64,000 nt of DNA from Nitrosospira sp. Nsp2 (GTDB taxonomy: Bacteria > Pseudomonadota > Gammaproteobacteria > Burkholderiales > Nitrosomonadaceae), in the NCBI RefSeq assembly GCF_003050965.1, contig NZ_QAOU01000006.1, positions 124,001 through 188,000 on the forward strand, written 5' to 3'. Under the pieces are notes generated by a model that saw nothing but the letters and a program-made list of their open reading frames with translations, did not search any database and was not told where the DNA came from. Numbering within the stretch: the stretch's first letter is position 1; every line of letters begins with the position of its first letter. Below are positions 4,703 through 59,355 of this stretch, piece by piece. The position numbers and the translations under genes were made by a program.

Positions 4703-5584
4703 GTGAATGAGTTAGCCGCGATCTACAGCATGACCGGCTATGCCGTAGTCACCAGGGAGTTGCCTCAGGGTTCCCTGAATCTGGAGCTGCGTTCCCTCAA
4801 CAACCGCTATCTCGACATCCAGTTCCGCCTGCCGGACGAACTCCGGATGTTGGAAGGCTCAATGCGTGAGTTGCTGGTAGCCCGGTTGAATCGAGGAAAG
4901 ATCGAGTGCCGTGTAAACTTTTTACCATCTGTCAGCACCGAAAATCTCCAGCATATCAACAGCGATTTATTGCATAAGCTTTTGAAGTTGAACCAGGTCG
5001 TTCGGGCAACCCTGCCTGATGCCGGTAGCCTCGATGTGGCGGATGTTCTCCGCTGGCCCGGAATGCTGGGCTCGGCAGCGCTGCCTGTGGCAGACCTGTC
5101 CGGTCCGTGCATGGAGTTGCTGGGCACTGGTTTGGACGAGCTGGCGGCAGCGCGGGCGCGAGAGGGTGAGAAACTCAAGCTCATACTGCTTGAACGATTG
5201 GCGCGGATACGCCGTCTGGCGGCCGAAGCAGTTCCGCGTATTCCCGTCTTGATCGCGGCGTTTCAGGAAAAGCTCAAGGCTCGGCTGTGCGAAGCCATGA
5301 TTAGTTGCGATGACGACCGCATTCGCCAGGAATTGACATTATTTGCCAGCAAAATTGACGTAGACGAGGAATTGTCGCGCCTTCAGACTCACCTGGACGA
5401 AGTAGAACGGGTATTAAGCAAAGGGGGCGCAATCGGCAAGCGGCTTGATTTCCTGATGCAAGAGCTTAATCGCGAAGCTAACACGATCGGGTCAAAATCG
5501 GTGGACGCAGAAGTGTCGAAAATGTGCGTTGAGCTAAAAGTCCTGATTGAGCAGATGCGGGAGCAGGTGCAGAATCTTGAGTGA
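4703..5584 (+). CDS. yicC: YicC family endoribonuclease
   Basis: YicC/YloC family protein, linked in E. coli to RNA turnover. The 293-residue product has the N-terminal signature YSMTGYAVV and the C-terminal DUF1732 segment with EELSRLQTHLDEV, GKRLDFLMQELNREANTIGSKS and a coiled-coil tail. The start is GTG at 4703. In many proteobacteria yicC is followed by gmk; here gmk is 23.6 kb away because mobile DNA has entered at the yicC 3' end. The last codons and stop (5582-5584) lie inside the 26-bp attachment repeat, so insertion has kept the gene intact. Confidence 0.92.
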   Translation: MNELAAIYSMTGYAVVTRELPQGSLNLELRSLNNRYLDIQFRLPDELRMLEGSMRELLVARLNRGKIECRVNFLPSVSTENLQHINSDLLHKLLKLNQVVRATLPDAGSLDVADVLRWPGMLGSAALPVADLSGPCMELLGTGLDELAAARAREGEKLKLILLERLARIRRLAAEAVPRIPVLIAAFQEKLKARLCEAMISCDDDRIRQELTLFASKIDVDEELSRLQTHLDEVERVLSKGGAIGKRLDFLMQELNREANTIGSKSVDAEVSKMCVELKVLIEQMREQVQNLE

Positions 5585-5590
5585 CATTTC
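5565..5590. repeat. attL: left copy of 26-bp direct repeat
   Basis: Runs from the final yicC codons through the stop codon (5582-5584) into 6 bp of flanking DNA. It is identical over 26 bp to 22217-22242, and partial identity continues for several more bases on the right. A tyrosine integrase starts 171 bp away, so this is taken as the recombination core. Confidence 0.88.
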
Positions 5591-5693
5591 TCACAGAATC
5601 ACATATTCTCTTAACCTCACTATATCCCAGTAGTAACGCGGATTTATCGTCTCACCCTGTTGCATTCCATTGCAAGCAAGCTCATAATCAGCC

Positions 5694-5744
5694 TGTACCA
5701 CTAGCACGTACCATCTTCACATGATGGTGCAATTATGGTGGTAC
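5694..5744. promoter_or_regulatory. Candidate integrase arm-type sites (left)
   Basis: Three GTACCA hexamers lie between attL and the integrase gene: 5695-5700, 5708-5713, and inverted (TGGTAC) at 5739-5744. Two more lie inside the right end at 22135-22140 and 22148-22153. The same word at both ends of the element fits arm-type binding sites of the integrase N-terminal domain. This is inference from pattern and position only. Confidence 0.45.
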
Positions 5745-5760
5745 ATGGAAAAAGGGCGAT

Positions 5761-7017
5761 ATGGGCAAGTTAAACGATATGCAAATTCGCAACTGGATCA
5801 AGGCCGGGGAGCGCTTTGACATGCGAAGCGATGGGGATGGGCTTTACCTATCCTATCGCGAAAACTTTGCTATTCCGGTATGGCGTCTTCGCTATAGTTT
5901 TGTCGGCAAACCCCGCATCATGAATATGGGGAGCTACCGGGACTTATCGATTGCCGACGCCCGAAAAAAAGCTAAAGAACTCAGAGCGCGCGTTGCGTTG
6001 GGATACGACGTAGCAGGGGAGAAACAGCAACGCAAGGTCGAGAGCCTGGCGAAGATTGAGTCTGACAAGAACGCGTATACAGTCGCGCAACTAGCCGACG
6101 AGTATTTCGAGCGAATGATTTTAGGACGCTGGAAGCATCCGAATATTGTGCGGGCTCGAATCGAAAGAGACATTAAGCCAGCTATCGGAAACCTAAGGGT
6201 TGAAGATGTAAAGCCGCGGCATATTGACGACATTCTCAAAGCAGTCATAAAGCGCGGCGCCCCCTCTATCGCCAATGACGTATTGCGCTGGCTGAAGCGC
6301 ATGTTCAATTACGCTGTGAAGCGCCATGTTATCGAATATAACCCGGCTGCCGCGTTTGATCCCGGCGACGCTGGCGGCAAGGAAAAAAGCCGAGACCGCT
6401 GGTTAAATGGCGCCGAGCTGGAAAAGTTTTTCGCAGCCATGCGGGACGCGAAAGGCTTCAGCGTTGAGAATTACTTAACCATCAAATTATTGTTGCTGCT
6501 GGCGGTCCGTAAAAGCGAGCTTATAACCGCGCGATGGGATGAGTTTGATTTAGACAAGGGCGTCTGGTACCTGCCGGCTGAACGCACGAAGACCGGAGTC
6601 GCGATGGACATACCGCTGCCTTCTGTTGCTGTGGATTGGTTGCGCGAGCTGGAACGGTTTGCTTGTGGCAGCGAATGGATATTACCGGCGCGCAAGGCGC
6701 AAGACCGCATGCTTCCTCACATTTCTGATAGCACCCTAAGCGTCGCGCTTGCTAAGGTTAAACACGGATTGGCCCCTTTCACTATTCACGATTTACGCCG
6801 CACAGCCCGCACTCATCTAGAGGCTTTGGGCGTTCCTCCACACATTGCCGAGCGCTGCCTGAACCATAAGATTAAGGGAGTGGAAGGGATTTATAACCGG
6901 CACGACTATTTTAAGGAACGCGAGGCGGCGCTGAACGCCTGGGCCGCCCTACTGTTACAGTTTGAGAAAGGCGGCGCCAAAGTGGTGCCGATAAAAAGGA
7001 GTAAGACCGTGGCCTGA
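5761..7017 (+). CDS. int: Tyrosine-type site-specific integrase (DUF4102/P4 type)
   Basis: Catalyses integration and excision of the element at the yicC attachment site. The 418-residue protein has an N-terminal DUF4102-type arm-binding domain (about residues 1-90, with WRLRYSFVGKPRIMNMG), a SAM-like core-binding domain, and a catalytic domain with R250 (AVRKSE), H343 and R346 (HDLRR), H369 (LNHK) and the nucleophile Y378 (GIYNRH). All catalytic residues are present, so the enzyme should be active. It is the first gene of the element, transcribed inward. No obvious excisionase follows directly; an AlpA protein at 9017 may fill that role. Confidence 0.93.
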   Translation: MGKLNDMQIRNWIKAGERFDMRSDGDGLYLSYRENFAIPVWRLRYSFVGKPRIMNMGSYRDLSIADARKKAKELRARVALGYDVAGEKQQRKVESLAKIESDKNAYTVAQLADEYFERMILGRWKHPNIVRARIERDIKPAIGNLRVEDVKPRHIDDILKAVIKRGAPSIANDVLRWLKRMFNYAVKRHVIEYNPAAAFDPGDAGGKEKSRDRWLNGAELEKFFAAMRDAKGFSVENYLTIKLLLLLAVRKSELITARWDEFDLDKGVWYLPAERTKTGVAMDIPLPSVAVDWLRELERFACGSEWILPARKAQDRMLPHISDSTLSVALAKVKHGLAPFTIHDLRRTARTHLEALGVPPHIAERCLNHKIKGVEGIYNRHDYFKEREAALNAWAALLLQFEKGGAKVVPIKRSKTVA

Positions 7018-7103
7018 CGGACTTCAGGCAATAAAGCGGGGTGAAAGGTGCGGACACACCAGACACCCCTGACCACAACGCAACCTACTCGGAGGTACGC
7101 ATC

Positions 7104-7352
7104 ATGGCTAAGGCCAATTCTACACGTTTTCCAAAACAACTCATGGAAGTACAGGACTTGCTTATGGAGTCCGGACACGTCGCGCAGTTCGTTAAAGACA
7201 TGTCTCTAAACACAGATGTAAATCTGGAAGCCGGCGAGTTGTCTGGGTTTTTCTTCGTAATGCAGGATTTAATCCACCGCATCAAAAAGGCCGAGAGGCT
7301 GCTAACAGAGTATAGGGACGGCATCGCCACAACAGAAAACGAGGTGGCGTGA
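7104..7352 (+). CDS. Hypothetical protein, first of a three-gene overlap set
   Basis: Unrecognised 82-residue protein, MAKANSTRFPKQLME at the N-terminus, mixed helical and hydrophilic, no signal peptide or membrane segment. A GGAGG ribosome-binding site at 7091-7095, 8 nt before the ATG, decides this start over a GTG at 7041. Its TGA overlaps the start of the next gene, indicating coupled translation. It lies 86 bp after the integrase. Confidence 0.65.
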   Translation: MAKANSTRFPKQLMEVQDLLMESGHVAQFVKDMSLNTDVNLEAGELSGFFFVMQDLIHRIKKAERLLTEYRDGIATTENEVA

Positions 7353-7741
7353 TGGCTAACCCTGCTGAGTTCATGCGCGGCGCTGCCGCATTTATGTCCG
7401 CCGTCCAAGCGGCGGAGAATATTAACGATGTGCCCACGACAGACGCGGAGCGGGCGGATGACGGCGAGCGTTATTACGGGGATCGAGATCAAATAAAGGC
7501 CCTGTTTGTGAAGTCTATGGGCGACTTGACAGAGTTCCAGTGCGGTTTTGTTGCCACCGTGGCTGAATATTTCCATATGGTAATCTCGAGCGGACACCCG
7601 AATTTCTCTGTATGGGTGCCGGATACCATGATGAATGCTAGCGAAATCAAGTCTTACCGCGGCGAAATGCTGCGCACAATGCGGGAAGACGAGGCCGAGG
7701 TCATGGGTTGGAATGCCGAAAATTGCGGCGAGGTGGCATGA
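7352..7741 (+). CDS. Hypothetical protein
   Basis: Unrecognised 129-residue protein, Met-rich and acidic (MANPAEFMRGAAAFMSAVQ at the start). Start taken at the ATG at 7352; a GTG three bases earlier also overlaps the upstream stop. It ends overlapping the next gene (ATGA), so 7104-7980 reads as one translational unit. Confidence 0.65.
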   Translation: MANPAEFMRGAAAFMSAVQAAENINDVPTTDAERADDGERYYGDRDQIKALFVKSMGDLTEFQCGFVATVAEYFHMVISSGHPNFSVWVPDTMMNASEIKSYRGEMLRTMREDEAEVMGWNAENCGEVA

Positions 7742-7980
7742 TGGAGCAAGTAAAAAAGACCCATATGCTAGATGACGAGCGCGGCTTGATCGTTTTGGAG
7801 GCGACCTGGGGGATTGACGCATTAGCGATATTAACGATCAAGGCACTCGAGGACGAGGACTCAGAGGAGGTGCTGTGGGCAACAAAAGAGGTATTGAAGC
7901 GAGTCAGGCAACTCAACAGCGTGATTATGAGCGCGGTAGGGGATAACGAAGACAACGACGCATTACGTAAAAGGACATAA
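7738..7980 (+). CDS. Hypothetical acidic protein
   Basis: Unrecognised 80-residue acidic protein (segment DDERGLIVLEATWGIDAL near residues 10-27, and a Glu/Asp-rich middle EDEDSEEV). Two adjacent ATG codons (7738, 7741) overlap the stop of the preceding gene. Last gene of the three-gene set. Confidence 0.6.
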   Translation: MMEQVKKTHMLDDERGLIVLEATWGIDALAILTIKALEDEDSEEVLWATKEVLKRVRQLNSVIMSAVGDNEDNDALRKRT

Positions 7981-8050
7981 CCCAGAAATAACCGCTTCGG
8001 GTTCGGGGCGGTTATAAACGGAATAGCAAATTCATTTGAAGGGGATGCAA

Positions 8051-8914
8051 TTGAGAAAGCTCTACCAGCTTAAGCAGTGGCTAACTATAGAAGAAAGCGC
8101 TCGTCACTTTTCGACTTTGTTTTCAGAGCCGGTGAGTGAGGCAGATATTCTTAGGCTAGGGCTGGATAGGCGTCTCACTCTCTCAGTAAATTTCGTGAAT
8201 GGTGCGTATGGGCGGCGAGGAAACATTGTTAGCGTAGACCCCGGTCCATTCGAAAAGCGTTACACCCACCCCTTTTCCGGCGCGGACTGGATGAGCTATC
8301 CACTCTGGTCCATTTACTGCGGGGCGCATGGAATAGAAACGCCAGAAGATTCTGAGCTTAAGCTTAAGCCCTCGATAGAGATACTGCACGGAGTCTACGA
8401 CCTATTTATGCTGGGGGCGGAAGCTATCGACATTGAGAACAGATGGCAGCTTCTGGCGGGTGGCCCAGCCATAAGTAAAAAAAATCGGGTCGGTGTGCTT
8501 GTCGGATCGATACCCGGTGAATTTTGCGAGGTTCAGGCTTTTACCCCAGCCGCGGGTTTCGAGGAGAAACCCCGCGGTTATCTCCTAAAGCGGGGTAATT
8601 TTTCGCCTGCGGAAAAACTTCCCGAGGATGCGATGCTAGTAGTCCGAACTAGCGCTATCGCTGAGTTCGAGGCAGAACTCCGGGAGCACAGTTCTCCTAA
8701 GGAAAAACCGCTTAGCACAACCGAGAGAACCTCACTCTTGACGATCATCGCAGCGCTGGCGGCAGCGAAAGGGATAGACATTTCAAAACCCTCGAAAGCT
8801 GCCCTTTCTATTGAAAGCCTGACAGATCAAATCAAGGCTCCAGTAGCGAAACGAACAATCGAAGAACATTTAAAACGCATCCCCGACGCACTGGAAAGGC
8901 GCACCAAATCTTGA
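8051..8914 (+). CDS. Conserved hypothetical protein of integrative elements, possible regulator
   Basis: 287 residues from a TTG at 8051, which is 6 nt after an AAGGGG ribosome-binding site; an ATG at 8045 is too close to that site. The N-terminus KLYQLKQWLTIEESARHFS resembles the helix-turn-helix-like opening of a family I associate with proteobacterial integrative elements, followed by ILRLGLDRRLTLSVNFVNG. The C-terminus (about 225-287) is polar and helical. No enzyme motif is visible. It lies just upstream of twin palindromes and alpA, so a regulatory role is possible but unproved. Confidence 0.6.
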   Translation: MRKLYQLKQWLTIEESARHFSTLFSEPVSEADILRLGLDRRLTLSVNFVNGAYGRRGNIVSVDPGPFEKRYTHPFSGADWMSYPLWSIYCGAHGIETPEDSELKLKPSIEILHGVYDLFMLGAEAIDIENRWQLLAGGPAISKKNRVGVLVGSIPGEFCEVQAFTPAAGFEEKPRGYLLKRGNFSPAEKLPEDAMLVVRTSAIAEFEAELREHSSPKEKPLSTTERTSLLTIIAALAAAKGIDISKPSKAALSIESLTDQIKAPVAKRTIEEHLKRIPDALERRTKS

Positions 8915-8921
8915 TTGTTTT

Positions 8922-8951
8922 GGCAATTGCCTAAAAATTTTGGCAGCTGCC
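8922..8951. promoter_or_regulatory. Twin 10-bp palindromes upstream of alpA (candidate operator)
   Basis: GGCAATTGCC at 8922-8931 and GGCAGCTGCC at 8942-8951, both perfect palindromes, centres exactly 20 bp apart, each preceded by TTTT. They lie 65-95 bp before the alpA start. Same-face spacing fits cooperative binding of a dimeric regulator. The binder is not known. Confidence 0.6.
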
Positions 8952-9016
8952 TGAAACTCAGCGTTAGATCGTTATCCTTATCACAGCATCACAAATAACT
9001 TTATAGGAAAACAGAT

Positions 9017-9235
9017 ATGAAAAATAAACCTGGGGGCTTCAAGTTGCCGCAGTCGCAATATATCCGGCAATCACAGTTAATCCCGTTCATTGTTCCATTC
9101 TCGTCCGCAACGCTTTGGAGAAAGGTAAAAACGAAGGAATTCCCAGCTCCAATCAAACTCTCTGAACGCATCACGGCTTGGAAAGTTGCAGACGTTAAGG
9201 AGTGGCTTGAATCGAAAGCAGGGGTAACGGAATGA
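9017..9235 (+). CDS. alpA: AlpA-family transcriptional regulator
   Basis: 72-residue MerR-like winged-helix protein of the AlpA (CP4-57 type) family, which in P4-like elements controls integrase or excision. Seen: YIRQSQLIPF, then SSATLWRKVKTKEFPAPIKL and AWKVADVKEWLESK, the family's usual order. The ATG at 9017 follows an AGGAAA about 9 nt upstream. Twin palindromes upstream may regulate it. The stop overlaps the next small ORF. A second AlpA protein with related sequence is at 61817. Confidence 0.9.
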   Translation: MKNKPGGFKLPQSQYIRQSQLIPFIVPFSSATLWRKVKTKEFPAPIKLSERITAWKVADVKEWLESKAGVTE

Positions 9236-9387
9236 CGGACCCCTCAAAAGAAATCGCCCGGGCGGCAACCCAGGCGATTCTCGAAACCAAAACCACTACA
9301 CACTCCGAACGCAATTCTAAACGACTGCCTCCATATGGCAAGCAGTTTATGGGTATCCGGGAGGGGCGCCATGAGCCAAAACCGTGA
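9232..9387 (+). CDS. Small hypothetical protein following alpA
   Basis: 51 residues, starting with an ATG that overlaps the alpA stop (ATGA) and ending 17 bp inside the next gene. Contains KRLPPYGKQFMGIRE near the C-terminus, a pattern I recall from short proteins encoded next to alpA in other elements. No function proposed. Confidence 0.5.
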   Translation: MTDPSKEIARAATQAILETKTTTHSERNSKRLPPYGKQFMGIREGRHEPKP

Positions 9388-9952
9388 TGACCTTCCATAT
9401 TTTCCTTACTACGCCAGCAATATCCTAGCCGACAAACGATTCCGCCTTATGTCGCTCCAGGAGTGCGGTCTATGGATCAAGATCTATACCGAATGCTGGC
9501 CTAACAGATCCGTTCCTGCGGCCCCTGTAGAGCTTGCCAGATACCTTGGTTACCCTGTTGAGGAGATAAAGGCCGCTCTCACCGAGAGAGTGTTGTCATT
9601 CTTTGAAGAGGTCAATGGCGAGCTTATATCACCGCAGTTAGAGGAATATTGGAAGAAGCAAACGAAACGGCGAGCGGGTCTTTCCGAAGGGGGCAAGAGA
9701 GGAGCAACTCGCAGATGGGGAAAAACTGAGGATGGCCAATCTGTAAATCCGCCAATTAATGACCTAAATATGGCTACCCCATTAGCCAGCCCATTAGCTA
9801 CCCCATTAGCCAGCTGTATGGCCTCTTTAAATACTCTTAAATCAAATACTCTTAAATCAAATCAAGTTCAGTCTTTAAAGAAGGAAGTAACTTCTGATGA
9901 GTGGTTAGATGGATATGACTCAGCAAGCAACCAAGTGAAGGTGACGGTATGA
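9371..9952 (+). CDS. DUF1376-like/phage replication-associated protein
   Basis: 193 residues from the ATG at 9371, which has a GGGAGGGG ribosome-binding site just upstream. The N-terminal half (DLPYFPYYASNILADKRF, then QECGLWIKIYTECW) resembles the winged-helix DUF1376/DnaD-like proteins that phages and islands use near their replication genes. After a basic segment (KKQTKRRAGLSEGGKRGATRR) comes a low-complexity part with tandem repeats of TPLASPLA and NTLKS, encoded by DNA repeats at about 9772-9870. The end overlaps the next gene by 4 bp. Confidence 0.55.
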   Translation: MSQNRDDLPYFPYYASNILADKRFRLMSLQECGLWIKIYTECWPNRSVPAAPVELARYLGYPVEEIKAALTERVLSFFEEVNGELISPQLEEYWKKQTKRRAGLSEGGKRGATRRWGKTEDGQSVNPPINDLNMATPLASPLATPLASCMASLNTLKSNTLKSNQVQSLKKEVTSDEWLDGYDSASNQVKVTV

Positions 9953-10577: not shown

Positions 10578-10825
10578 TCAGCGTAACAGGCCGGGGGTGG
10601 CAAAAAGTTACCCTCTTTACATCGGAAACCGCGCTGATAGTCATTTATTCACACGTGCAGTTGAGAAAAACAGGTTTTTCAGGAACACATTATTCGCAGT
10701 CAAACAGACCTAAAAGCCATATCCAGAGCCAATCTACAGGTAATAGGCAACATATCAAAACACTTATTTTTTGCTCAAAAACACACCCTTTTCATTTCGC
10801 AGCTATCAAAAAGGTAAAAAAATGA
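10574..10825 (+). CDS. Doubtful small ORF in the overlap chain
   Basis: 83 codons starting at an ATGA overlap with the preceding gene and ending just inside the next gene. The product is rich in Ser, Thr, His and Lys with no recognisable domain (MISVTGRGWQKVTLF at the start). Only the overlap favours translation; composition is unlike its neighbours. It may be a decayed gene or non-coding spacer. Confidence 0.28.
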   Translation: MISVTGRGWQKVTLFTSETALIVIYSHVQLRKTGFSGTHYSQSNRPKSHIQSQSTGNRQHIKTLIFCSKTHPFHFAAIKKVKK

Positions 10826-11094
10826 ATCAAGAAATAGACGAATCAATACTCGACACATTGGAAAACGGCGTCAAAACATCGTTACAGATTATCGAGCTGA
10901 TGATTGTAGCGATCCGCCGGCACAACCAGCAGGCGGCCGACGACATCGACGCGCTTGTTAACGCTGGCAAAGCCCGCCTTGTATTACAAGCAGACGTGAA
11001 CGGGCTCGAATTGTTCGCGGTGGGAACCGACAATAAGGTGATCGGCGGCCCCTTGCTGGCGTACCACAGAGGGGACAACGAAGTATGCCATTAA
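10822..11094 (+). CDS. Small hypothetical protein, paralogue of 13120-13398
   Basis: 90 residues from ATG 10822, preceded by an AAAGG-type site. The second half (VLQADVNGLELFAVG, NKVIGGPLLAYHRGD) aligns with the protein at 13120-13398 (MLQVRAGGIDLVALD, NRIFGEPLFSYVKEE), so the element carries two diverged copies of this fold. The N-terminal half is helical. Function unknown. Confidence 0.6.
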   Translation: MNQEIDESILDTLENGVKTSLQIIELMIVAIRRHNQQAADDIDALVNAGKARLVLQADVNGLELFAVGTDNKVIGGPLLAYHRGDNEVCH

Positions 11095-11251
11095 CAGCGA
11101 ATCGGAATATTTACGCGCAAGCCATGAGAAAGGGGGGGGCCGGGCTGAGGTGCTGAGAAAACGACGGATAGAAAAAGAGCCTACGGAGCAGTTGGGATAC
11201 TCGCGCTCCAAGGCAAAAACGATTGTTTCAGAGGTGGATAACGGTAAGTGA
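11042..11251 (+). other. Open frame with G8 tract, probably a small gene with altered start
   Basis: The frame is open from 11042 to a TGA at 11249-11251 that overlaps the GTG of the next gene (GTGA), as expected for a real coupled gene. It reads INSESEYLRASHEKGGG then RAEVLRKRRIEKEPTEQ. No ATG, GTG or TTG lies before a GTG at 11150, whereas an ATG at 11085 is in another frame that runs into the same eight-G tract (11132-11139) and then stops. A one-base slip in the tract would join them. Either a frameshifted gene or a short GTG-started one. Confidence 0.35.
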
Positions 11252-11619
11252 ATTTAACCAGCTATCTAGAGAACGTATTACCACCTAGCCCCGAGCGTGA
11301 AGAGATCCTGACATTGGTTAGACTGGGACTCTCATTCCAGCAACAGCAAAGAATTGGGAAGAGGCCCGGTTTTCTCAAAGACTATCTTCAGGAGTTGCTT
11401 CCTAAAATAGAAGGCTGCATAACCTTCGACCGGCTCCTGCAGGAACTGGAACTGGAATCGGCCCGCCGGGACATATATGGCGAGGAAGAAAGCCCGATAG
11501 AGAAGGTCGACAGGGTCTGGGAAATCATTATCTACCATCACCCGCGTACAGGGCGCCAGCAACTCACATTCAAGAGCCTTAGGAACAAGCTCTCCTGGTG
11601 CAAGGCAAATCTCCGGTAA
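11248..11619 (+). CDS. Hypothetical protein
   Basis: Unrecognised 123-residue helical protein (MNLTSYLENVLPPSPEREE; C-terminal RQQLTFKSLRNKLSW). Start is GTG at 11248, overlapping the upstream stop. A strong hairpin terminator follows 17 bp after the stop, so this closes the transcription unit that begins near alpA. Confidence 0.6.
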   Translation: MNLTSYLENVLPPSPEREEILTLVRLGLSFQQQQRIGKRPGFLKDYLQELLPKIEGCITFDRLLQELELESARRDIYGEEESPIEKVDRVWEIIIYHHPRTGRQQLTFKSLRNKLSWCKANLR

Positions 11620-11635
11620 TCCCCCCTCACAGATA

Positions 11636-11659
11636 ACGGTGCAGCTTCCGCACCGTTTT
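11636..11659 (+). terminator. Rho-independent terminator
   Basis: Perfect 7-bp stem ACGGTGC/GCACCGT (11636-11642 and 11650-11656), 7-nt loop, then a T run. Placed just after the 11248-11619 gene. Confidence 0.8.
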
Positions 11660-11784
11660 ATCTCCCTAAAGTTTTTTCAATATTCTTTTTCCCTGATACC
11701 GCTAAACCGGGAATCCCGTTTTATATCATATCCATATACTCAGTTCATGATTAATACGTTGACATCATTTAAGGAATTTAGCAT

Positions 11785-11961
11785 ATGGATAACGAAGAAA
11801 TAAAGAATATGCTTCTGAATCAAGGCAGGGCATTTACCGAGTTTAAAAAAGCAAACGATGAGCGTCTTAAAACCCTGGAAACAAATTTACACGCGTTTGC
11901 AAAGCAGGCGCGGAAGCGGGGAGTAGGCGCGTCCAAACGAGTACCGATCAATAACCATTAA
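11785..11961 (+). CDS. Small protein resembling the N-terminal helix of HK97-type capsid proteins
   Basis: 58 residues (MDNEEIKNMLLNQGRAFTEF at the start, then KKANDERLKTLE). The pattern of a Gln-Gly-x-Ala-Phe-x-Glu-Phe-Lys helix resembles the scaffolding (delta) segment at the start of HK97-fold major capsid proteins, but the capsid body is absent. AAGGAA lies 8 nt before the ATG. It could be a capsid remnant, a small scaffold-like protein or a chance helical match. Confidence 0.45.
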   Translation: MDNEEIKNMLLNQGRAFTEFKKANDERLKTLETNLHAFAKQARKRGVGASKRVPINNH

Positions 11962-11971
11962 GGAATAAGCA

Positions 11972-12256
11972 ATGAACCCGCACGACAACTGGATGATGAA
12001 TTTCTACACAAACAGGATCATGAACGACAAGAGCGGCAGGCCGATCTCCGACGCGCACTTATTGATGGCAAGGGGAAAGCTAATCCTTGCTCTTGAACAG
12101 GAAGGTAGGCAAAGAAGAAGTGAAAGGTCGGCCCTTAAACAGGGAAGCAGACGAAAAACAAACGAAAGGAAGCTCGCCCTTGCCCTTAAATCGGGGAGCG
12201 GGAGCAGCCAAAGAACAAGAAATGAAAGAAGGCTCGCCCTTGCCCTTGCTTCATGA
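11972..12256 (+). CDS. Hypothetical basic protein with C-terminal repeat
   Basis: 94 residues, AAGGAA site ahead of the ATG. The second half repeats the pattern NERKLALALKS / NERRLALALAS, encoded by two near-identical DNA stretches around 12165-12190 and 12225-12252. Arg/Ser-rich linker between. No known family. It starts 10 bp after the previous small gene. Confidence 0.5.
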   Translation: MNPHDNWMMNFYTNRIMNDKSGRPISDAHLLMARGKLILALEQEGRQRRSERSALKQGSRRKTNERKLALALKSGSGSSQRTRNERRLALALAS

Positions 12257-12299
12257 GTATCAAGGCCAAAAAACATTCTAACCATAAGGAAACATCGAA

Positions 12300-12977
12300 A
12301 TGAAGAATCAAGCTTTTGCCCTACCTAAGCTTTCCGACAACAAGGAATACGCTGCTGCAACCAACAAATTAGCTGATTTACGGCTTCAACTGGCTGAGGC
12401 GGAAGGAAAGAGAGATGCAATTCTGAGCGAGATTCATAAAGGACGTCCGCAGCGTAACCCCATCCAGGAAGCGGCAGAGAAGATGCTGGAAGGTGGGTCA
12501 AGTCCTGAAATTACCAATGAAGAGAAACTGCGGGAGAGTTACCAAGAGCTGATCACGCGTATTTCAGTCATCAAGGCTGCTATTCGACTACAGGAACAGA
12601 AAGTCATGGATAAGTTGTCTGCGGTATCTGTTGAAGTCATGGAGCGGTTCCAGCCAGCACACCGTGAAAACGCCCGTAAGGTTGTGTCAAAGCTCAAGGA
12701 ACTGGATGAGGCGTTAACCGCTGAAGCAGAGTTACGGGAAGGATTGTACTACGCAGGTTTCGCTACAGGCCGACTTACCTACATGGGCATCCGGGAATTA
12801 GGAGATCTGAGGGACCCCAATTCACGTGTTTATCGCTACCTCATGGAGGCGTTCCAGGAAGGTTTTATTGACCAGAGCGAGCTCCCCGAGAATTTTCCGA
12901 AAATGACTCAGGAACCGAAGAATCTCGCAAGCGAGGCGCTGAAGTCCAGGCTTAACACCTTGATAGAGGCCGCATAA
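12300..12977 (+). CDS. Hypothetical helical protein of phage-like region
   Basis: 225 residues, mostly helical and charged; residues about 20-130 look like coiled coil (LADLRLQLAEAEGKRDAI). The C-terminal part (YYAGFATGRLTYMGIRELGD, then RVYRYLMEAFQEGF) has more order. AAGGAAA precedes the ATG. It lies upstream of the tape-measure gene, where tail-assembly or head-tail genes would lie in a phage, but it has no recognised family. Confidence 0.55.
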   Translation: MKNQAFALPKLSDNKEYAAATNKLADLRLQLAEAEGKRDAILSEIHKGRPQRNPIQEAAEKMLEGGSSPEITNEEKLRESYQELITRISVIKAAIRLQEQKVMDKLSAVSVEVMERFQPAHRENARKVVSKLKELDEALTAEAELREGLYYAGFATGRLTYMGIRELGDLRDPNSRVYRYLMEAFQEGFIDQSELPENFPKMTQEPKNLASEALKSRLNTLIEAA

Positions 12978-13069
12978 GGGATGCGTATCAATCCGCGAGT
13001 CGCGCAGCTCAAAAGAAACCCGGATGGCCGGCAGCAACCCTACCTTTTGTTGCGCGGCTGGCAAAAGAA

Positions 13070-13097: not shown

Positions 13098-13119
13098 ATG
13101 GATAACGATGAGAGAGAAA

Positions 13120-13398
13120 ATGACAAATAAAGATGACGAGCAAATGAAGTTTGCGTTTAACAACATGATCGATGCGGCTTCACAGGTTGCTGACATCATG
13201 TTTCTTGCGCTCTTCAAAGAGGATCCAAAGAAGGCTGAGGAAATCGCCGTAGCGATCAACTCGAATCGGCCGAGATACATGCTGCAGGTTCGCGCCGGCG
13301 GTATTGATCTAGTTGCCTTGGACGAACAAAACAGGATATTTGGAGAGCCGTTATTCTCGTATGTAAAAGAAGAGGAAAAGCCGGTATGTATAAATTAA
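13120..13398 (+). CDS. Small hypothetical protein, paralogue of 10822-11094
   Basis: 92 residues from ATG 13120 (an ATG at 13108 is also possible). The C-terminal half (MLQVRAGGIDLVALD, GEPLFSYVKEE) matches the product of 10822-11094. The N-terminal half is helical (MTNKDDEQMKFAFNNMIDA). It lies 12 bp before the tape-measure gene. It may be a tail chaperone-like partner by position, which is a guess. Confidence 0.55.
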   Translation: MTNKDDEQMKFAFNNMIDAASQVADIMFLALFKEDPKKAEEIAVAINSNRPRYMLQVRAGGIDLVALDEQNRIFGEPLFSYVKEEEKPVCIN

Positions 13399-13410
13399 TA
13401 GGGGTTAAAA

Positions 13411-15408
13411 ATGTCAGGTAGAGGGATAACTGTCGATTTCAATGCGAATGTCGCGCGCTTTACCAGCGCGATCGATAAAGCGACGAATGATCTGGGTAAG
13501 TTCCAGACAAATACCGATCGCATTAGCAAGAATATCAATAACGCTCTAAGCAATATCGGCGTAGGCCTCTCTGCTGCTGGCGTTGTCGCTTTCGGCAAGT
13601 CTGTTATCGATGGTTTAGACAAACTAAATGACCTGAGCAAAACAACCGGATTAGCGGTTAATCAACTAGCTGGCCTCGGCGTCGCCGCGGAAAAATCCGG
13701 CGCCGATCTGGATAGCGTTGCGGCTGCCGTATCAAAACTGTCCGTCAACATGGGCAAGGATGCGGAGAAGTTCCGCGCACTCGGCATAACTGCTAAGGAT
13801 CCGCTCGAAGCGTTCAAGCAGTTAGCGGATGTTACGAACGCTATACAAGACCCATTCCAGCGCGCTGCTGTGCTGTCTACTGCGCTTGGTAAGTCATGGC
13901 AGGATGTTACGCCCTTGCTTGCTGAAGGTGGGGCGGCTATCGGCCGCATGGTATCAGAAGGGGATAAGGCTTCCGGCGTCACAAAGGAGATGGCAGAACA
14001 GGCCGACAAGTTTAATGATGAACTTAAGAACCTGCAGGCTAATATCGGCGGCGTGGCAATCGGTTTAACAGGCAAGTTGGTACCGGCCCTGAACGACGCA
14101 ATCAAGAATATGAAGAACCTCTTCGCGCCAGAAGAGGATATGAAAATCACGGTGCGCTTGAATTATCTGCGCGACTCGATGGATTCGATTCTCAGCAGAA
14201 GACAGATGATAGGCAAGCTCGGGTTTGATTCATCGGGCCTATGGGCGGCTGATCTTCAAAAGCTGAACGCTGAAGCCCTATCCCTTCAACAGACCCTTGC
14301 CAAGTTACAGAATACCGGGCCTGCCAAGATAGCGCTACCAATCACCCCCAGCAAGTCATCAATATTCGCATTCCTGGGGAGCGACACATCAAGCAAACGG
14401 ACGAACGACTCGGCCAAGAAAGCGGCTGATGATCGCTTGAAGATTGCTCAGCATGAAATGGATGTCGAGCTGGAAGCATTCAATAGATTCCACAAAGACC
14501 GCGAGAAGGCGGCTAGGGACTCACAGCAATCCCTTAACGATCTGATGAAATCGGGGCAGGATTTAAAACTATCCGTTGACCCAATGGCGCGGATGAATGC
14601 CGAGGTTGCCAAGTACAGCGAGCTCCTAAAGGCTGGCGCTATCGAGCAGAAAACGTTTGATCTTGCCGTGGCAAAAAGCGCGGCAGACATGGAGCGCGCA
14701 ACGAAGGTAAGTTTTGATGGCCTGAAATCCAACGCTGACGCATCTTCCGAAAGGCTTAATGCTGTGCTGATCGGTTTCCAAACGAACGTCCAACGGAACA
14801 TGGGCGACACGGTATTCAGAACGTTGAGCGGAGACTTTGACAGTATCGGAAACGCGTGGAAAACAATGCTGCTGAGAATGGCTTCCGATGCGATTGCTGC
14901 GGACCTAGCGAATACTATCTTCGGCGCTGGCGGCAAAAAAGGCGGCTTTTTGAAAATGGGGTTGTCGATACTAGGCGACGTGATGGGCCTCTTTGGTGGA
15001 GGTGGCAAAGGGATAGGTAGCGCGCTCAAGGTAACAAGCGGCGGCCTGTTCGGCGTTGCTGCCAATGGCGCTTACTTCGACGGTAAGGGCATGGCGAATT
15101 TCTCCAAGTTCGCAAACGGCGGCATTGTAAACAGTCCCACCATGTTCAAGTTTGAGTCTGGCGGAGCGCTTCAGAATGGTCTGATGGGTGAGGCTGGCCC
15201 TGAGGCAATCATGCCTTTAAAGCGTGATTCGAGAGGCAGGCTCGGCGTATCGGGTGGAGGTGGCGGAGGTTTGGTAATCCACGATAACCGAACCATCAAT
15301 ATCGATAGCAGATCAGACAGAGCGGCGATAAATCAAGATGTGCAAAAGCTGATTAAGCACGGCAATGCTGAGCTCGTCGACAAGCTCTCGAGGCAAGGCT
15401 TGATCTAA
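13411..15408 (+). CDS. Phage tail tape-measure protein
   Basis: Tape-measure proteins set tail length and line the tail tube of siphophages and myophages. The 665-residue product has the typical opening (ARFTSAIDKATNDLGKFQ, then a hydrophobic stretch LSNIGVGLSAAGVVAFGK), the LNDLSKTTGLAVNQLAGLG and KSWQDVTPLL segments, a charged coiled-coil middle (about 340-460) and a Gly-rich end with MGEAGPEAIMPLKRDSRGRL, a signature seen at the C-terminus of lambda-H-like proteins. It is short compared with many. No tail tube, tail completion or baseplate genes flank it, which is unusual. Confidence 0.85.
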   Translation: MSGRGITVDFNANVARFTSAIDKATNDLGKFQTNTDRISKNINNALSNIGVGLSAAGVVAFGKSVIDGLDKLNDLSKTTGLAVNQLAGLGVAAEKSGADLDSVAAAVSKLSVNMGKDAEKFRALGITAKDPLEAFKQLADVTNAIQDPFQRAAVLSTALGKSWQDVTPLLAEGGAAIGRMVSEGDKASGVTKEMAEQADKFNDELKNLQANIGGVAIGLTGKLVPALNDAIKNMKNLFAPEEDMKITVRLNYLRDSMDSILSRRQMIGKLGFDSSGLWAADLQKLNAEALSLQQTLAKLQNTGPAKIALPITPSKSSIFAFLGSDTSSKRTNDSAKKAADDRLKIAQHEMDVELEAFNRFHKDREKAARDSQQSLNDLMKSGQDLKLSVDPMARMNAEVAKYSELLKAGAIEQKTFDLAVAKSAADMERATKVSFDGLKSNADASSERLNAVLIGFQTNVQRNMGDTVFRTLSGDFDSIGNAWKTMLLRMASDAIAADLANTIFGAGGKKGGFLKMGLSILGDVMGLFGGGGKGIGSALKVTSGGLFGVAANGAYFDGKGMANFSKFANGGIVNSPTMFKFESGGALQNGLMGEAGPEAIMPLKRDSRGRLGVSGGGGGGLVIHDNRTINIDSRSDRAAINQDVQKLIKHGNAELVDKLSRQGLI

Positions 15409-15919: not shown

Positions 15920-15940
15920 CACGGGCTTTACCAGAAGCCG

Positions 15941-16380: not shown

Positions 16381-16403
16381 AAAAACCCGGCGAAGCCGGT
16401 TTT
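16381..16403 (-). terminator. Terminator for the minus-strand gene at 16425
   Basis: Hairpin CCGGC-GAA-GCCGG (16387-16391, 16395-16399) flanked by A4/T4 arms; read on the minus strand it ends in a T run. The 16193-16424 interval otherwise holds a degenerate repeat copy at about 16321-16375. Confidence 0.6.
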
Positions 16404-16424
16404 ATAAAGACGCGTTGGAACGCT

Positions 16425-17580: not shown

Positions 17581-17582
17581 TA

Positions 17583-18306: not shown

Positions 18307-18319
18307 TAACTTTGCATCA

Positions 18320-18553
18320 TTACTTTTTCAAGGCAATGACCTGATCAACTCGACTTTCCTCATCATATCGCACTTCATAGGCCATTTCATCGCCGCTAAA
18401 TGTTCCTTTCGCCTCGCAGGGGTATTGCTGCAATGGGTAATCTGTCGGAATACCCCGGGGGCCTTCATTTCCCTCAGGCCTAATAGCGGAATCCGTGCTT
18501 GCCCCTTTCTTGCTATAAATTCCACCGAAAAAAGGTAAAAAAAGACCTTTCGC
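18320..18553 (-). pseudogene. 5'-truncated small ORF upstream of the SNase gene
   Basis: The frame is open from 18553 to the stop at 18320-18322. It reads GGIYSKKGASTDSAIRPEG, then GIPTDYPLQQYPCEAKG, then YEVRYDEESRVDQVIALKK, which looks like the C-terminal two-thirds of a secreted protein. There is no ATG, GTG or early TTG, and a TAG closes the frame upstream. The end is 14 bp before the nuclease start. Probably a remnant. Confidence 0.4.
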
Positions 18554-18671
18554 CTAGCTCATCCGTTCCTAGGCTGATTGTTTTCCACCTCGGCAATATG
18601 AAGGTAGCCACCACCTTATTTAAATCGATCCTAGGGCGTTTAAATCAGTCTCTTGTACTCACGAATGGTGC

Positions 18672-18830
18672 GCAACAAACGGGATGTATAAAAATGGTGG
18701 TTGTTGCGTGCTGTTTTCTGCGCTGCTTGATAAGTGATAGCCTCTGTCGACGCGGGTTCCAGCTCTTAAATTATTCATTTTGGAAGTGCTTGTTGCGTTG
18801 TTGCTTTCCTAGTAAACGCAACATGCAACA
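18672..18830. repeat. Cluster of GCAACA/TGTTGC hexamers
   Basis: Six copies in 159 bp: GCAACA at 18672, 18818 and 18825; TGTTGC at 18702, 18791 and 18799. The tandem pair at 18791-18804 and the pair at 18818-18830 are mutually inverted and can form a hairpin. The 18560-19160 interval has no convincing gene, so this may be a control region for the leftward operon. Confidence 0.4.
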
Positions 18831-19159
18831 GCCTCGCTTTCGAGGGCGAATCAAGCCCCCTTTTTGGCATCCGAAAAGCCGCCGACATTTACCTAAAATT
18901 GATTACTTTTATGAAAGGAAGGGTGGGGAGACGGGTTCCGGGATTTTATCTGAAAGAATAATGGCCCCTCCTGCTATTAGTTGATGTTTCAATGTTTCTG
19001 GAACATCATGGGGCTCAACCACAACAAAAGGTCGCCATGTCAACACATCAATGCATTGCTATGCCCATGAAGCTTATGCAGCATGACAGAGCCGCATATG
19101 ACGGGGCATTCGACTATCAATGTGATGCCGCTTCAAATGCAGAAGCGTTGATGATCTTC

Positions 19160-19588
19160 TCAGCTAGATACTTGAAAGAGAACCCTCATCGAGTATCGAT
19201 TGCAAAGGATTGCTGTTTCAGCATTAAGGCGCTCTAAGCCTTTCGCCAGTGATGCTGGATCGCTCGGGAAACCATTCACATCGCATCCGCTTCTCATCCG
19301 TGGCTTGGTCGTGATCCCTCTGGCCCGGTTCGATTCCTGCTGGGTTTTTTCCTTGTGACATGGATTACATAACCCGACCGTATTACTCGGGTCGTCTGTT
19401 CCGCCTTCAAACAACGGGACAACATGGTCCCTTTCCGTGGCAAGCCTGGTTATCCCTTTCTTCTGGCAGCGAACGCATAGAGGGTTACATTTGAACAGCT
19501 CAGCCCTTGCCTGTCGGAGGGCTCGACCTCTTAGCCTGGTTTCACTTGAGCCAGGTCTGTTTGACCATGATTTACGTTGCAGCAGTTT
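19160..19588 (-). CDS. HNH endonuclease (start codon unclear)
   Basis: The frame is open for 143 codons. It carries the HNH core: CVRCQ, then ATERDHVVPLFEGGTDDPSN and GLCNPCHKEKT, with two CxxC zinc pairs, and a C-terminal part with GCDVNGFPSDP. Phage HNH proteins of this type usually sit beside the terminase genes and assist packaging cleavage. No ATG, GTG or TTG lies before the motif; the frame opens KLLQRKSWS after a TAG at 19589-19591, so initiation at CTG or a lost start is possible. It lies 3.2 kb from the small terminase gene, separated by the leftward operon. Confidence 0.55.
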   Translation of the reverse strand, partial: KLLQRKSWSNRPGSSETRLRGRALRQARAELFKCNPLCVRCQKKGITRLATERDHVVPLFEGGTDDPSNTVGLCNPCHKEKTQQESNRARGITTKPRMRSGCDVNGFPSDPASLAKGLERLNAETAILCNRYSMRVLFQVSS

Positions 19589-19740
19589 CTAAAAATCTTT
19601 CCTCAAGTTCCTGAAACCACACTTATTTTAACCTAAGGACGAGCTTGTTGCGGTGAACCTCTGCTCCGGTAGCTATCTATTATTCCAATTCATACCGATA
19701 CCCGCCGGTATTTTTTCGCCTAGTTCGCAGATCCTTGCTA

Positions 19741-19884
19741 CTCAGAGACGGCAGCTGGAACGACAGCAGGGACTTGCTCACCCGTTTTGAAGTGGTGCTG
19801 GGCAAGCTGGGAATGAGCCCTGCAGCGCATCAACGCTATAGGTTTTTCCTGTCCATTGGTACATGGCGAAAAGACTTACATTAG
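19741..19884 (+). pseudogene. Coding remnant of unknown protein
   Basis: The frame ending at TAG 19882-19884 reads DLLTRFEVVLGKLGMSPAA in its centre, a well-formed helix resembling C-termini of phage packaging or small terminase proteins. No start lies in range and the upstream frame runs through a terminator-like hairpin. Treated as a gene tail. Confidence 0.28.
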
Positions 19885-20067
19885 TTCTTTAGTGCCAATA
19901 TGAGTTAATAAAATATCCAAGGAATCAAAGTGTTGAATTATGGCTCGGTTTTTGCTTATCACAGTACATCAGTCTATATCCCGTAGTGCCGTTCTTGCAC
20001 CTGTACTCTATCTTGCTCTGTCTGCACATAAATAGGGTGTTTTCCCGTCATCTTAGGGGAAACCGTA

Positions 20068-20967
20068 ATGGTGAATAAGGAATATCGATTAGGAATGTAT
20101 TTGATGAAAATGTCGCAATGCTTATCAGTAATGTCACTGGCGCTATTAGGAACCTTTTACAGCGTCCCGCCTGCATTGGCGACGCCATTTCTGGGTTCAG
20201 CGGAAAGTTACGCTGTACTGGGTGCGTCGACGGTGACTAATACCGGCTCGACCACAGTCTGGGGAGACCTTGGTGTTTATTCAGGCACCTCGATCACCGG
20301 CTTGGGGAGCATCTCGCATACAGGAACGATACACCAAACTGATGCGGTCGCGCAGCAAGCTCAGGTTGATGCCCTGTCTACATATAATATTCTTGCGGCT
20401 CAGGCGGTTACCGCCGACCTAACTGGTCAGGATCTGGGAGGGCTCACGCTCACTCCCGGCGTCTATTTCTTTTTGTCGTCCGCTCAATTGACGGGAACGC
20501 TTACTCTTAACGCCCAAAACGATCCCAATGCACTCTTCGTTTTCCAGATAGGGAGCACGCTCACGACCGCAAGCAACTCCGTTGTCGACGTGCTCAATGG
20601 CGATACAAATAGCGGCGTATTTTGGCAGGTCGGGAGCTCGGCGACGCTGGGTACCAGCACGTTGTTCGCAGGAAATATTCTCGCGGATCAGAGTATCACC
20701 CTGAACACCACGGCAAACATCTTGTGCGGCAGGGCCATCGCGCTAAATGGGGCGGTGACAATGGATACAAACAGCATCTCCAACAATTGCATGGGCGCCG
20801 GCGATATTGAGAGCGGGCGCAGCGACTACGGCAGCGTCGGCTTCAGCGGTTTGGGAAACAGCGACGGTGGTAGTCAGACCGTTCCCGAGCCAGCCACGCT
20901 TGCATTGCTCGGACTAGGATTCTTGGGGCTTGGGTTTATTCGCCGTCGGCACGGGGAAAATATATAG
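20068..20967 (+). CDS. DUF3494 ice-binding-type protein with PEP-CTERM anchor
   Basis: 299 residues. N-terminal signal (hydrophobic stretch [20 protein letters not shown], about residues 18-37), then a DUF3494 ice-binding-type beta-helix ([38 protein letters not shown]), and a PEP-CTERM sorting signal ([19 protein letters not shown] followed by RRRH). The sorting signal directs proteins to the exosortase system and the cell surface or matrix. The ATG at 20068 has AGGGGA upstream. Many DUF3494 proteins act as adhesins or unknown surface proteins, so ice binding is not assured. It is cargo at the right side of the element. Confidence 0.88.
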
Positions 20968-21162
20968 CCGAATAAAGCTATCAACCAAATTGATAGGAAA
21001 CGCGGCCGAGCTACAAAACAATATTGCAAGTATTAGGGGTATGCTTTCTCTCTTGATGTGGGGGGCGAGGTAGTCAAACAATTGAAAGTAGTTTTACGAT
21101 GCCTAGAGAAGAAATTAACTCGCTTTTGAACTCGCTTAATTGCGGAAAATAGCCCTGCGCCC

Positions 21163-21185
21163 AAACCCGCTCCGGCGGGTTTTTT
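21163..21185 (+). terminator. Terminator, first of three in series
   Basis: Stem AAACCCGC/GCGGGTTT (21163-21170, 21175-21182), 4-nt loop, T run. Confidence 0.75.
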
Positions 21186-21339
21186 GTTGGTAGCTTGCAG
21201 GCCGCTCTCTACCTGAATCTGCAATGCGCTAAATAGCCGCCTAAACCCGTTTCATTTCGTCTCAAGGAATTTCATAATTGTTGCTATTGTGGTATCGCAA
21301 GCGGATGAGCCCGCTCTGCACCTCCGTACCTTGACACTT

Positions 21340-21367
21340 ATACCCGGCCTCCCCGGGTATTTTTTTG
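21340..21367 (+). terminator. Terminator, second of three in series
   Basis: Stem ATACCCGG/CCGGGTAT (21340-21347, 21353-21360), loop CCTCC, seven Ts. Nearly the same stem as the next terminator. No gene precedes it closely. Confidence 0.75.
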
Positions 21368-21493
21368 CCTGCCTTCTGAAGCAACTTTCAAAAAACAAGC
21401 TATATTGAAATCGCAGGGTGGTGAGCAGTTTAAATCATCTTTCTTCCCAGTTCGATGACTGACACTTCCCTGCATCTCTCCATTATCCAATTT

Positions 21494-21525
21494 ATACCCG
21501 GCTAGCCATGGGCCGGGTATTTTTT
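21494..21525 (+). terminator. Terminator, third of three in series
   Basis: Stem ATACCCGGC/GCCGGGTAT (21494-21502, 21512-21520), 9-nt loop, T run. Shares stem and upstream bases (ATTATCCAATTTATACC) with the second terminator and with a weaker hairpin at about 19676-19717. Confidence 0.75.
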
Positions 21526-21712
21526 GTTACAGCGGCCCACAAGCCTAGAAGATTTCTCGTCGAAACTCTACCAGAAGCCCTACAGTGGATTTAAGTGGAG
21601 GGGTGGCTACCTTCGTATTGCCGAGGTGGGGAATAATTCCTTCCTTGCCGTCCTAGCTCGCTCCGCGGAAGCGGCTGAGGCAGTCAGAAAAAGCTTTGTG
21701 TTCCTTAGATAA
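21524..21712 (+). CDS. Small ORF, best-preserved copy of the QKP-FK-GY repeat family
   Basis: 62 codons from a TTG directly after the third terminator; reads KLYQKPYSGFKWRGGYLRI then AEVGNNSFLAVLARSAEAAE. Composition looks protein-like, but the start is poor and the 3' end overlaps the convergent lipoprotein gene by 60 bp. Two degraded relatives lie at about 16321 and, inverted, at about 18582. Either a small gene or the tail of a lost larger one. Confidence 0.35.
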   Translation: MLQRPTSLEDFSSKLYQKPYSGFKWRGGYLRIAEVGNNSFLAVLARSAEAAEAVRKSFVFLR

Positions 21713-22036
21713 GTTAACCAGAGCTGCAGCCGAACTTTCATGAAGTTCGACGCGACCATTGTCAAAGACATCTGCGCTAAGCAGAACTGATGACTGAGTT
21801 AATACTTCCACACGATAGCGTTCAGTACGACGCTGCTGCCTAACTGCAACATTCGCCAGCATTATGCTACTTGCGTCGAACCCATCCATTAAGCAATCCG
21901 TGAAAAGTTGGGTGCTGGAGGTTGGTATTTCACCGTGTTGAGTGAGCTTGAAAGCTCCACTATCAGAGCGAGTGGGGGCTGAGACGCACGCCCCCAGTAG
22001 GCTAGCGAGAAGCGTGATATACAGAAGCCTTAACAT
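21653..22036 (-). CDS. Putative lipoprotein
   Basis: 127 residues with a lipoprotein signal: MLRLLYITLLASLLGAC, lipobox LLGAC, lipidation Cys at 17. The mature part is beta-rich with no known family (FTDCLMDGFDASSIMLANV, then RTERYRVEVLTQSSVLLSA). Last gene before the right attachment site, so probable element cargo; outer or inner membrane location not predictable with certainty. Confidence 0.75.
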   Translation of the reverse strand: MLRLLYITLLASLLGACVSAPTRSDSGAFKLTQHGEIPTSSTQLFTDCLMDGFDASSIMLANVAVRQQRRTERYRVEVLTQSSVLLSADVFDNGRVELHESSAAALVNLSKEHKAFSDCLSRFRGAS

Positions 22037-22134
22037 GGTCGAGCCTGCAAAGTCTGAGAAGAGTTCAAACTTTTGTCTTTATACTCCTAATGGATGAGCA
22101 TGGCCATGAGTTAATAAGGTCCATGCCGAGTGAT

Positions 22135-22153
22135 GTACCACCTAGGTGTACCA
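22135..22153. promoter_or_regulatory. Candidate integrase arm-type sites (right)
   Basis: Two GTACCA words (22135-22140, 22148-22153) spaced 13 bp, about 65-80 bp inside attR, matching those near attL. Confidence 0.42.
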
Positions 22154-22216
22154 CCGCAAAATCATTGAGTACTAGAATGGCGTGGGTAAACAGTTTCAGC
22201 CGGATAGTACGGGTAT

Positions 22217-22242
22217 AGGTGCAGAATCTTGAGTGACATTTC
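22217..22242. repeat. attR: right copy of 26-bp direct repeat
   Basis: Identical to 5565-5590 and therefore a duplicate of the yicC 3' end, with the terminal codons and stop but no upstream gene. Marks the right boundary of the element. Confidence 0.88.

Positions 22243-59279: not shown

Positions 59280-59355
<76 letters not shown>

Follow-up and report, generated by a model that had tools for sequence, protein, structure and literature searches.

A probable PICI-like phage satellite at yicC in Nitrosospira encodes a full-length tail tape measure protein

Directly behind yicC in Nitrosospira sp. Nsp2 lies a 16.65-kb integrated element that encodes a tail tape measure protein (TMP) and a terminase small subunit (TerS), which raises the question of what kind of mobile element would carry these two phage genes. 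We analyzed a 64,000-nucleotide stretch around it (NZ_QAOU01000006.1, positions 124,001 to 188,000; hereafter the window, with its element termed W) against related genomes (G numbers) and individual loci (L numbers). An original prediction, made from the DNA letters, had proposed a mobilizable island of the MGIVflInd1 type. Our comparisons argue instead that W is very likely a phage satellite resembling phage-inducible chromosomal islands (PICIs), one that carries single virus parts, probably to build hybrid particles that would spread it. We assign the whole explanation, including packaging and chimeric tails, a probability of about 0.6.

Both ends of W are marked by a 26-bp attachment (att) core, AGGTGCAGAATCTTGAGTGACATTTC, present as two copies with 0 mismatches (5565-5590 and 22217-22242) that start 16,652 bp apart. 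The left copy comprises the final yicC codons and stop, and likeness with mismatches extends to 44 bp (5558-5601 and 22210-22253, 86%). Allowing up to three mismatches, no further copy was detected in the window (shuffle mean 0.00) and no third copy in the 3.46-Mb, 21-contig genome, where the two form the sole such pair. The sister strain G105, of the same species, has an unoccupied yicC site with a single core copy on stretch L063. Window positions 3202-5598 align with L063 1-2396 at 99.4% and positions 22217-27991 with 2363-8137 at 99.1%, each alignment reaching through that single copy; counted from the start of the core, G105 matches the left-type sequence for 26 bases and the right-type sequence for 38 bases. 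This empty site with one copy confirms both element boundaries, in agreement with the exact repeat and element size originally proposed, and supplies the comparison with related strains that the original prediction had called for. Because it is also present in G105, the right flank belongs natively downstream of yicC as far as the thioredoxin and gmk genes. Farther along this flank, 340 bp of the window (approximately 27991-28331) are missing in G105.

Relatives that have the repeat and no integrase, or whose gene content is the same to either side of the right copy, had been named as adverse findings. The former was seen once and in mild form: G094 (L073, oriented position 6433) retains, about 4 kb past yicC, a degraded att copy that agrees at 22 of 27 bases, with no recognizable integrase among open reading frames (ORFs) of at least 80 amino acids between the two. 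It is a probable scar of an older element. The latter is not seen.

The integrase gene sits just inside the left copy, as had been noted, starts 176 bp 3′ of the yicC stop codon, and encodes Pfam tyrosine integrase domains. Across 125 genomes of the host's family, four close homologues were found (67, 78, 79, and 84%), with the next best score at 34% identity, and all five integrases, that of the window included, are placed 176-252 bp behind yicC, bearing out this gene as the target. More distant relatives (53-66%) occur at 22 IMG/VR loci, eight of which were checked for yicC: it lies directly upstream in three (L156, L157, and L164), four have fewer than 75 upstream bases, and L148 has 8 kb of upstream DNA without a yicC match. 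Relatives of one IMG/VR integrase were present in 541 of 5,426 E. coli genomes. Two of these regions were read, and in both the gene behind yicC is the integrase, with a regulator (AlpA or helix-turn-helix) and a primase coming after it; the integrase of strain D72 is 61% identical to ours. This integrase type is thus a yicC module serving islands of several kinds. Consistent with the original prediction, yicC is a known attachment gene of MGIVflInd1 and other islands (PMC8409611, PMC8978831), and the betaproteobacterial host was rightly recognized, the matching named genus records being Nitrosospira.

The gene content, in contrast, does not support an MGIVflInd1-type island, as phage TerS and TMP genes are present instead. 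The TMP of W has two metagenomic relatives, in L185 (91% identical) and L186 (82%), and all three frames are open, at 665, 665, and 666 amino acids for W, L185, and L186. The ratio of nonsynonymous to synonymous differences per site (pN/pS) is 0.12-0.17 among them and 0.27-0.42 against the phages L187 and L188. Compared with L187, the first 240 residues of the W TMP are 78-93% identical per 60-residue block, and residues 541-660 are 30-36% identical. Median pN/pS values, all rough, were 0.16 for the integrase (10 pairs), 0.18 for capsid protein (28 pairs), 0.21 for TerS (15 pairs, largest 0.49), 0.24 for the marker protein o124 (55 pairs), 0.26 for a J-like tail-tip protein (15 pairs), and 0.36 for o225 (3 pairs). 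Purifying selection on TMP and on the family TerS is thus evident at the sequence level.

A tree of 19 TerS sequences places W and six others in one clade (support 99/98); it left out L172, L173, L176, L178, L183, L184, duplicates of second G099 satellites, and partial copies in L110, L111, L114, and L116. One clade member, L106, lies in a stretch in which no integrase was seen. L139 attaches weakly (83/80) and by a long branch, and L115 groups with a phage (99/97), so at least two carrier changes are needed. Relatives of TMP and TerS led to two prophages plus small elements. The prophage on contig 24 of G109 encodes TerL (the terminase large subunit), portal, capsid, major tail, distal tail, and tail proteins by PHROGs, and that on contig 16 of G098 was matched to it by homology. 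From candidate-phage regions, 151 ORFs were compared with W, and only TMP, TerS, and an HNH endonuclease matched. Among 50,697 phage records, there was no integrase or TMP match of at least 60% identity and no TMP match covering 80% of the protein.

The marker protein o124, which had no match in Pfam or PHROGs, ties W to a family of elements. It occurs at eight places in six of the 125 genomes, all of a single genus, which in the named records is Nitrosospira, and each place is an integrase-bearing element: two behind yicC and the others beside tRNA-Ser, tRNA-Cys (two), tRNA-Met, and tRNA-Ala (two). An integrase comes first in the common build, in most cases with AlpA and a replication gene, and then the marker protein and variable phage virion genes follow, over approximately 10-18 kb. 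Terminal repeats bound the elements of L108 (10.1 kb, 48 bp), L107 (10.3 kb, 14 bp), and G104 (17.7 kb, 15 bp); no att pair was established for L130, L131, or L115. The genome of W holds a second satellite of about 12.6 kb at tRNA-Ser, which is absent from G105, where the flanks meet over 14 bp.

Gene content was tabulated for 14 loci (nine genomic, five metagenomic) with approximate ends, counting matches of at least 40% of the query. The table was drawn up apart from the remnants L106, L110, L114, L167, L168, and L197, the fragments L169 and L170, the yicC elements of G097, G107, and G115, and L178, a duplicate of L115. AlpA and o124 are each found in 11 loci, J-like proteins in seven, TerS in six, prohead protease and portal in three each, and the window-type TMP in three. 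A capsid protein of either type is encoded in 11, all except W, G104, and L130. Protease and portal accompany the capsid protein in L115, L185, and L186, a capsid module that W lacks. Searched with candidate-phage proteins, the 14 loci yielded no TerL (query, the TerL of L113), no major tail protein, and no distal tail protein. The virion genes (capsid protein, protease with portal, TerS, TMP, or a truncated J) are combined differently across loci.

W is itself a mosaic at the DNA level, resembling the G100 yicC element over 5638-7131, L129 over 10809-11613 and 21652-22070, L130 over 11281-12117 and 12258-13006, and L185 over 13117-15387, which indicates that modules pass between satellites. 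Replication genes vary as well: W has a primosomal-type protein only, and its relatives have DUF3987, DUF3631, or AAA proteins. L185, a metagenomic sequence of 11,200 bp, encodes capsid, protease, portal, TMP, and HNH, followed by the motif satRep (below) and an integrase. An overlap of 117 bp between the contig ends (offset 8), detected by a k-mer check and not by an exact terminal repeat search, gives an 11,075-bp circle or concatemer with no room for host genes. This is the best hint that such elements may exit the chromosome, unless the closure is an assembly artifact.

In eight aligned satellites, the J-like protein measures 344-356 amino acids, compared with 1084 in phage L188. Over the region that aligns, it shares 65-79% identity with the phage protein; it stops at one alignment column in all eight and shows pN/pS of 0.13-0.29. 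Exceptions are a 438-amino-acid ORF in L108 and a 73-amino-acid fragment in L131, neither of which entered the alignment or the six-sequence set behind the median. In L129 the truncated J gene is followed by one (9208-9660) whose product has a retropepsin-like aspartyl protease domain (Pfam PF13650, 9.2e-09), an unusual occurrence in a phage-like operon. A separate observation concerns tail length: L130 (G098 contig 7, 11073-14624) is a satellite with a different TMP of 1183 amino acids, and it shares its genome with a prophage bearing a 778-amino-acid TMP (L112 3680-6016), making a natural tail-length pair.

These features can be arranged into a scheme modeled on known satellites. The integrase would insert the element at the 3′ end of yicC, leaving the coding end intact. 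Upon infection by a helper siphophage, AlpA would switch the element on and aid excision, for which AlpA proteins acting as activator or excisionase offer precedent (PMC6092414, PMC8978831), and the primosomal-type protein would initiate replication. TerS redirection is part of the described PICI build (PMC6092414); by analogy, the satellite TerS would join the helper large terminase and steer packaging to satellite DNA, which we consider likely. The satellite TMP would then substitute for that of the helper, so that helper tube and tip proteins assemble around a satellite ruler. The 2026 description of Vibrio cholerae PICI-like elements (PLEs), in which a satellite TMP gives chimeric tails (PMC12987554), is the model for this step, for which we see an even chance in W. 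Other family members have a different virion part in the same region, be it a capsid protein, a protease plus portal, or a tail-tip protein in truncated form, and a capsid-protein homologue of a satellite is described as redirecting capsids (PMC8569155). Both packaging and chimeric tails are thus inferred from precedents.

Several observations weigh against this explanation. No induction, packaging, or transfer was observed. TerL of the candidate kind was found in four of 23 genus genomes, two at just 26-32% identity, and not in the genome of W; that genome holds no candidate-type phage, and no genome record links W to a helper. TerS is present in only six of the 14 loci, and the core genes vary, with AlpA and o124 each missing from three loci and o124 absent from L115, L185, and L186. 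The four yicC elements besides W (in G097, G100, G107, and G115) yielded no right att copy, the nearest sequences agreeing at 15-16 of 27 bases, and all but that of G100 differ internally. The right third of W looks partly decayed, with an HNH fragment and sparse ORFs, and the pN/pS values are rough because pS is near saturation in many pairs. As separate observations on the three divergent yicC elements, L066 (G097) contains an S49 peptidase and DUF3987, L068 (G107) a Terminase_2 protein and DUF3631, and L069 (G115) type I restriction genes.

The gene-poor right third, the truncated HNH gene, and the presence of two phage genes are what one would also expect of a defective prophage from which most genes are gone, TMP and TerS surviving by chance. 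We regard this as improbable, given that no further phage-module relics emerged among the 151 phage-region ORFs tested, that elements organized alike occur at yicC and at five kinds of tRNA gene, with at least four types of integrase, and that TMP is conserved in other small elements, with L185 and L186 already refuting such an origin in part. An integrative mobilizable element moved by conjugation, as in MGIVflInd1, would share the target, and yicC integrases do serve such elements (PMC8409611). A Pfam scan of 23 element proteins, in which oriT (the origin of transfer) was not searched for, found no relaxase or conjugation family, and phage virion genes are present instead, leaving this account with very little credence.

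A more serious competitor, though still an unlikely one, accepts that W is a satellite and holds that its TMP, like the J fragment in related elements, serves as a weapon that spoils phage tail assembly, the particles using ordinary helper tails. Blockers of tail assembly have been described in PICIs, P4-like satellites, and prophages (PMC11364771, PMC10884400), and the J-like protein, short, ending at one alignment column, and under purifying selection, would suit such a role. Yet a poison would not have to be full length, as this TMP is, and the PLE TMP is incorporated in virions (PMC12987554). We continue to favor a satellite that builds hybrid particles with its TMP.

Capsid-forming PICIs (cf-PICIs) characteristically encode their own TerL. 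Capsid protein, protease, and portal are shared with them by L115, L185, and L186; the differences are that no TerL homologue was found in the 14 loci and that W has no capsid gene. Some cf-PICIs contain putative tmp genes (PMC12987554, Extended Data Fig. 10 legend). With Gram-negative PICIs in general, as likened through published descriptions, W shares an end integrase, a specific att site, AlpA, and TerS (in some), with a primosomal-type protein as candidate for the replication gene, and most members match in size, at about 10-15 kb (PMC6092414, PMC11364771). It differs in having TMP, its relatives in having capsid, portal, protease, or tail-tip genes, and both in their replication proteins and betaproteobacterial host. 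With the PLEs of V. cholerae, W has in common a satellite TMP, which makes chimeric tails there (PMC12987554); no gene-content relation was seen, the TMPs themselves not being compared directly. Ccm of SaPIbov5, a capsid-protein homologue redirecting capsid assembly (PMC8569155), parallels the capsid-bearing relatives and not W. MGIVflInd1 shares integration at the yicC 3′ end, and GI21 of Shewanella shares the target and the order integrase, hypothetical protein, AlpA (PMC8978831), whereas no conjugation genes were found in W, which has phage genes instead.

Phage satellites, carriage of TerS or capsid protein, yicC islands, and a satellite TMP in PLEs are thus already known. No description of a family with a variable virion-part cassette was found in the literature searched, most subscription papers lying outside its reach, and among the matches listed in Nitrosospira-directed searches, titles and abstract openings mention no such elements. 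That an undescribed Nitrosospira family swaps virion-part cassettes (among them a J protein cut at a fixed point and followed by a retropepsin-like protease), each member rebuilding a different helper part, and that TMP piracy arose outside PLEs, is a proposal we hold at even odds.

The coordinates of the features of W are collected in Table 1.

Table 1. Features of the window element and its insertion site (window positions; loci out of the 14 tabulated)
Feature	Start	End	Strand	Remarks
yicC, target gene; 3′ end is left part of attL	4703	5584	+	99% identical in G105
attL core, 26 bp	5565	5590	+	single attB copy in G105
Tyrosine integrase, 418 aa, yicC-specific clade	5761	7017	+	Pfam Arm-DNA-bind_3, Phage_int_M, Phage_integrase
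Small ORF; DNA near probable start (~7104) conserved in other satellites	7041	7352	+	
o292	8036	8914	+	27% relative of second gene in other yicC elements
AlpA-family regulator, probable excisionase	9017	9235	+	Pfam Phage_AlpA 1.6e-07; PHROGs excisionase
Primosomal-type replication protein	9335	9952	+	phrog_9327 9.9e-09
o135, common to other satellites	9949	10356	+	8/14 loci
o107, common to other satellites; real start probably ~45 bp later	10771	11094	+	9/14 loci
o124, family marker protein, 123 aa	11248	11619	+	11/14 loci
o225, coiled-coil-like	12300	12977	+	3/14 loci; model low confidence
Small protein 5′ of TMP, likewise 5′ of TMP in L185	13024	13398	+	
TMP, full-length, 665 aa	13411	15408	+	PHROGs, NCBIfam
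TerS, satellite clade	15500	15919	+	phrog_12559 7.5e-19; tree
satRep motif, copy 1	16319	16347	+	
Cargo: o155 and SRAP-domain protein	16425	17580	-	both also in G104 element
Cargo: o93 and staphylococcal-type nuclease	17583	18306	-	both also in G104 element
HNH endonuclease fragment, 84 aa	19160	19414	-	second satellite of own genome: 120 aa, 90% identical
Ice-binding-like PEP-CTERM protein, cargo	20068	20967	+	Pfam Ice_binding 2.9e-54
satRep motif, copy 2	21568	21596	+	
Small lipoprotein-like protein	21653	22036	-	87% to one in second satellite of own genome
attR core, 26 bp	22217	22242	+	exact repeat; G105 comparison

The two satRep copies in W belong to a dispersed 29-bp noncoding motif with 18 sites in 12 of the 23 genus genomes at up to three mismatches; the reversed motif, as control, gave no sites in these genomes. 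It stands directly behind TerS in L107, L108, and L110 and elsewhere behind later genes. At up to six mismatches it occurs in nine of the 14 loci and is missing from L064, L130, L131, L140 (which has the core alone), and L141. Six further sites were inspected, four of which adjoin family-like genes; those in L199 and L206 do not. A role as terminator was rejected when five folded copies gave no common hairpin, and one as helper packaging site when a search of candidate phage regions for the 16-bp core, allowing up to two mismatches, found none. The motif may be a packaging or recombination site. In L204 (G107 contig 32, 533-2050), which is outside the 14 loci, satRep adjoins a homologue of the candidate-phage TerL (32% identity). 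L204 could be a related satellite that encodes a TerL itself, which calls for caution over the picture of a TerL-free family.

A second shared element is a leader directly 5′ of the start codon, common to the G098 prophage TerS (L112 18227) and to o107 in three satellites (L108 10045, L131 13081, and L140 9552); two further copies in L129 precede no such gene. The protein preceding TMP in W is a distant, 24% relative of an o107 homologue in L108, and this likeness suggests an old duplication. Structure prediction for o124 and o225 was set aside, as AlphaFold gave a mean pLDDT (predicted local distance difference test) of just 53 and 60. The gene at the o292 position is annotated DUF6387 in one E. 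coli strain. Among 10 element proteins screened for defense functions, the nuclease alone gave a weak PADLOC match, and no tail assembly chaperone was recognized in W, no model-based search having been aimed at one. Elsewhere in the window (59280-64000), a relic of a third satellite lies at tRNA-Ala(cgc), also present in G105 (L168), with an integrase at 59534-60739 (85% to those of tRNA-Ala satellites) and AlpA at 61778-62023; beyond the window it continues with satRep and fragments (L167).

Together, these comparisons indicate that TMP carriage recurs in a satellite family without an evident link to PLEs and with sequence evidence of selection. They make it testable whether satellites generally rebuild heads, tail length, or tail tips, and they provide a defined mobile-element system for ammonia oxidizers, in which the integration site is exact and a sister strain offers the empty site. 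If the proposal is true, chimeric-tail piracy by a satellite TMP would have arisen outside PLEs, in bacteria that drive nitrification.

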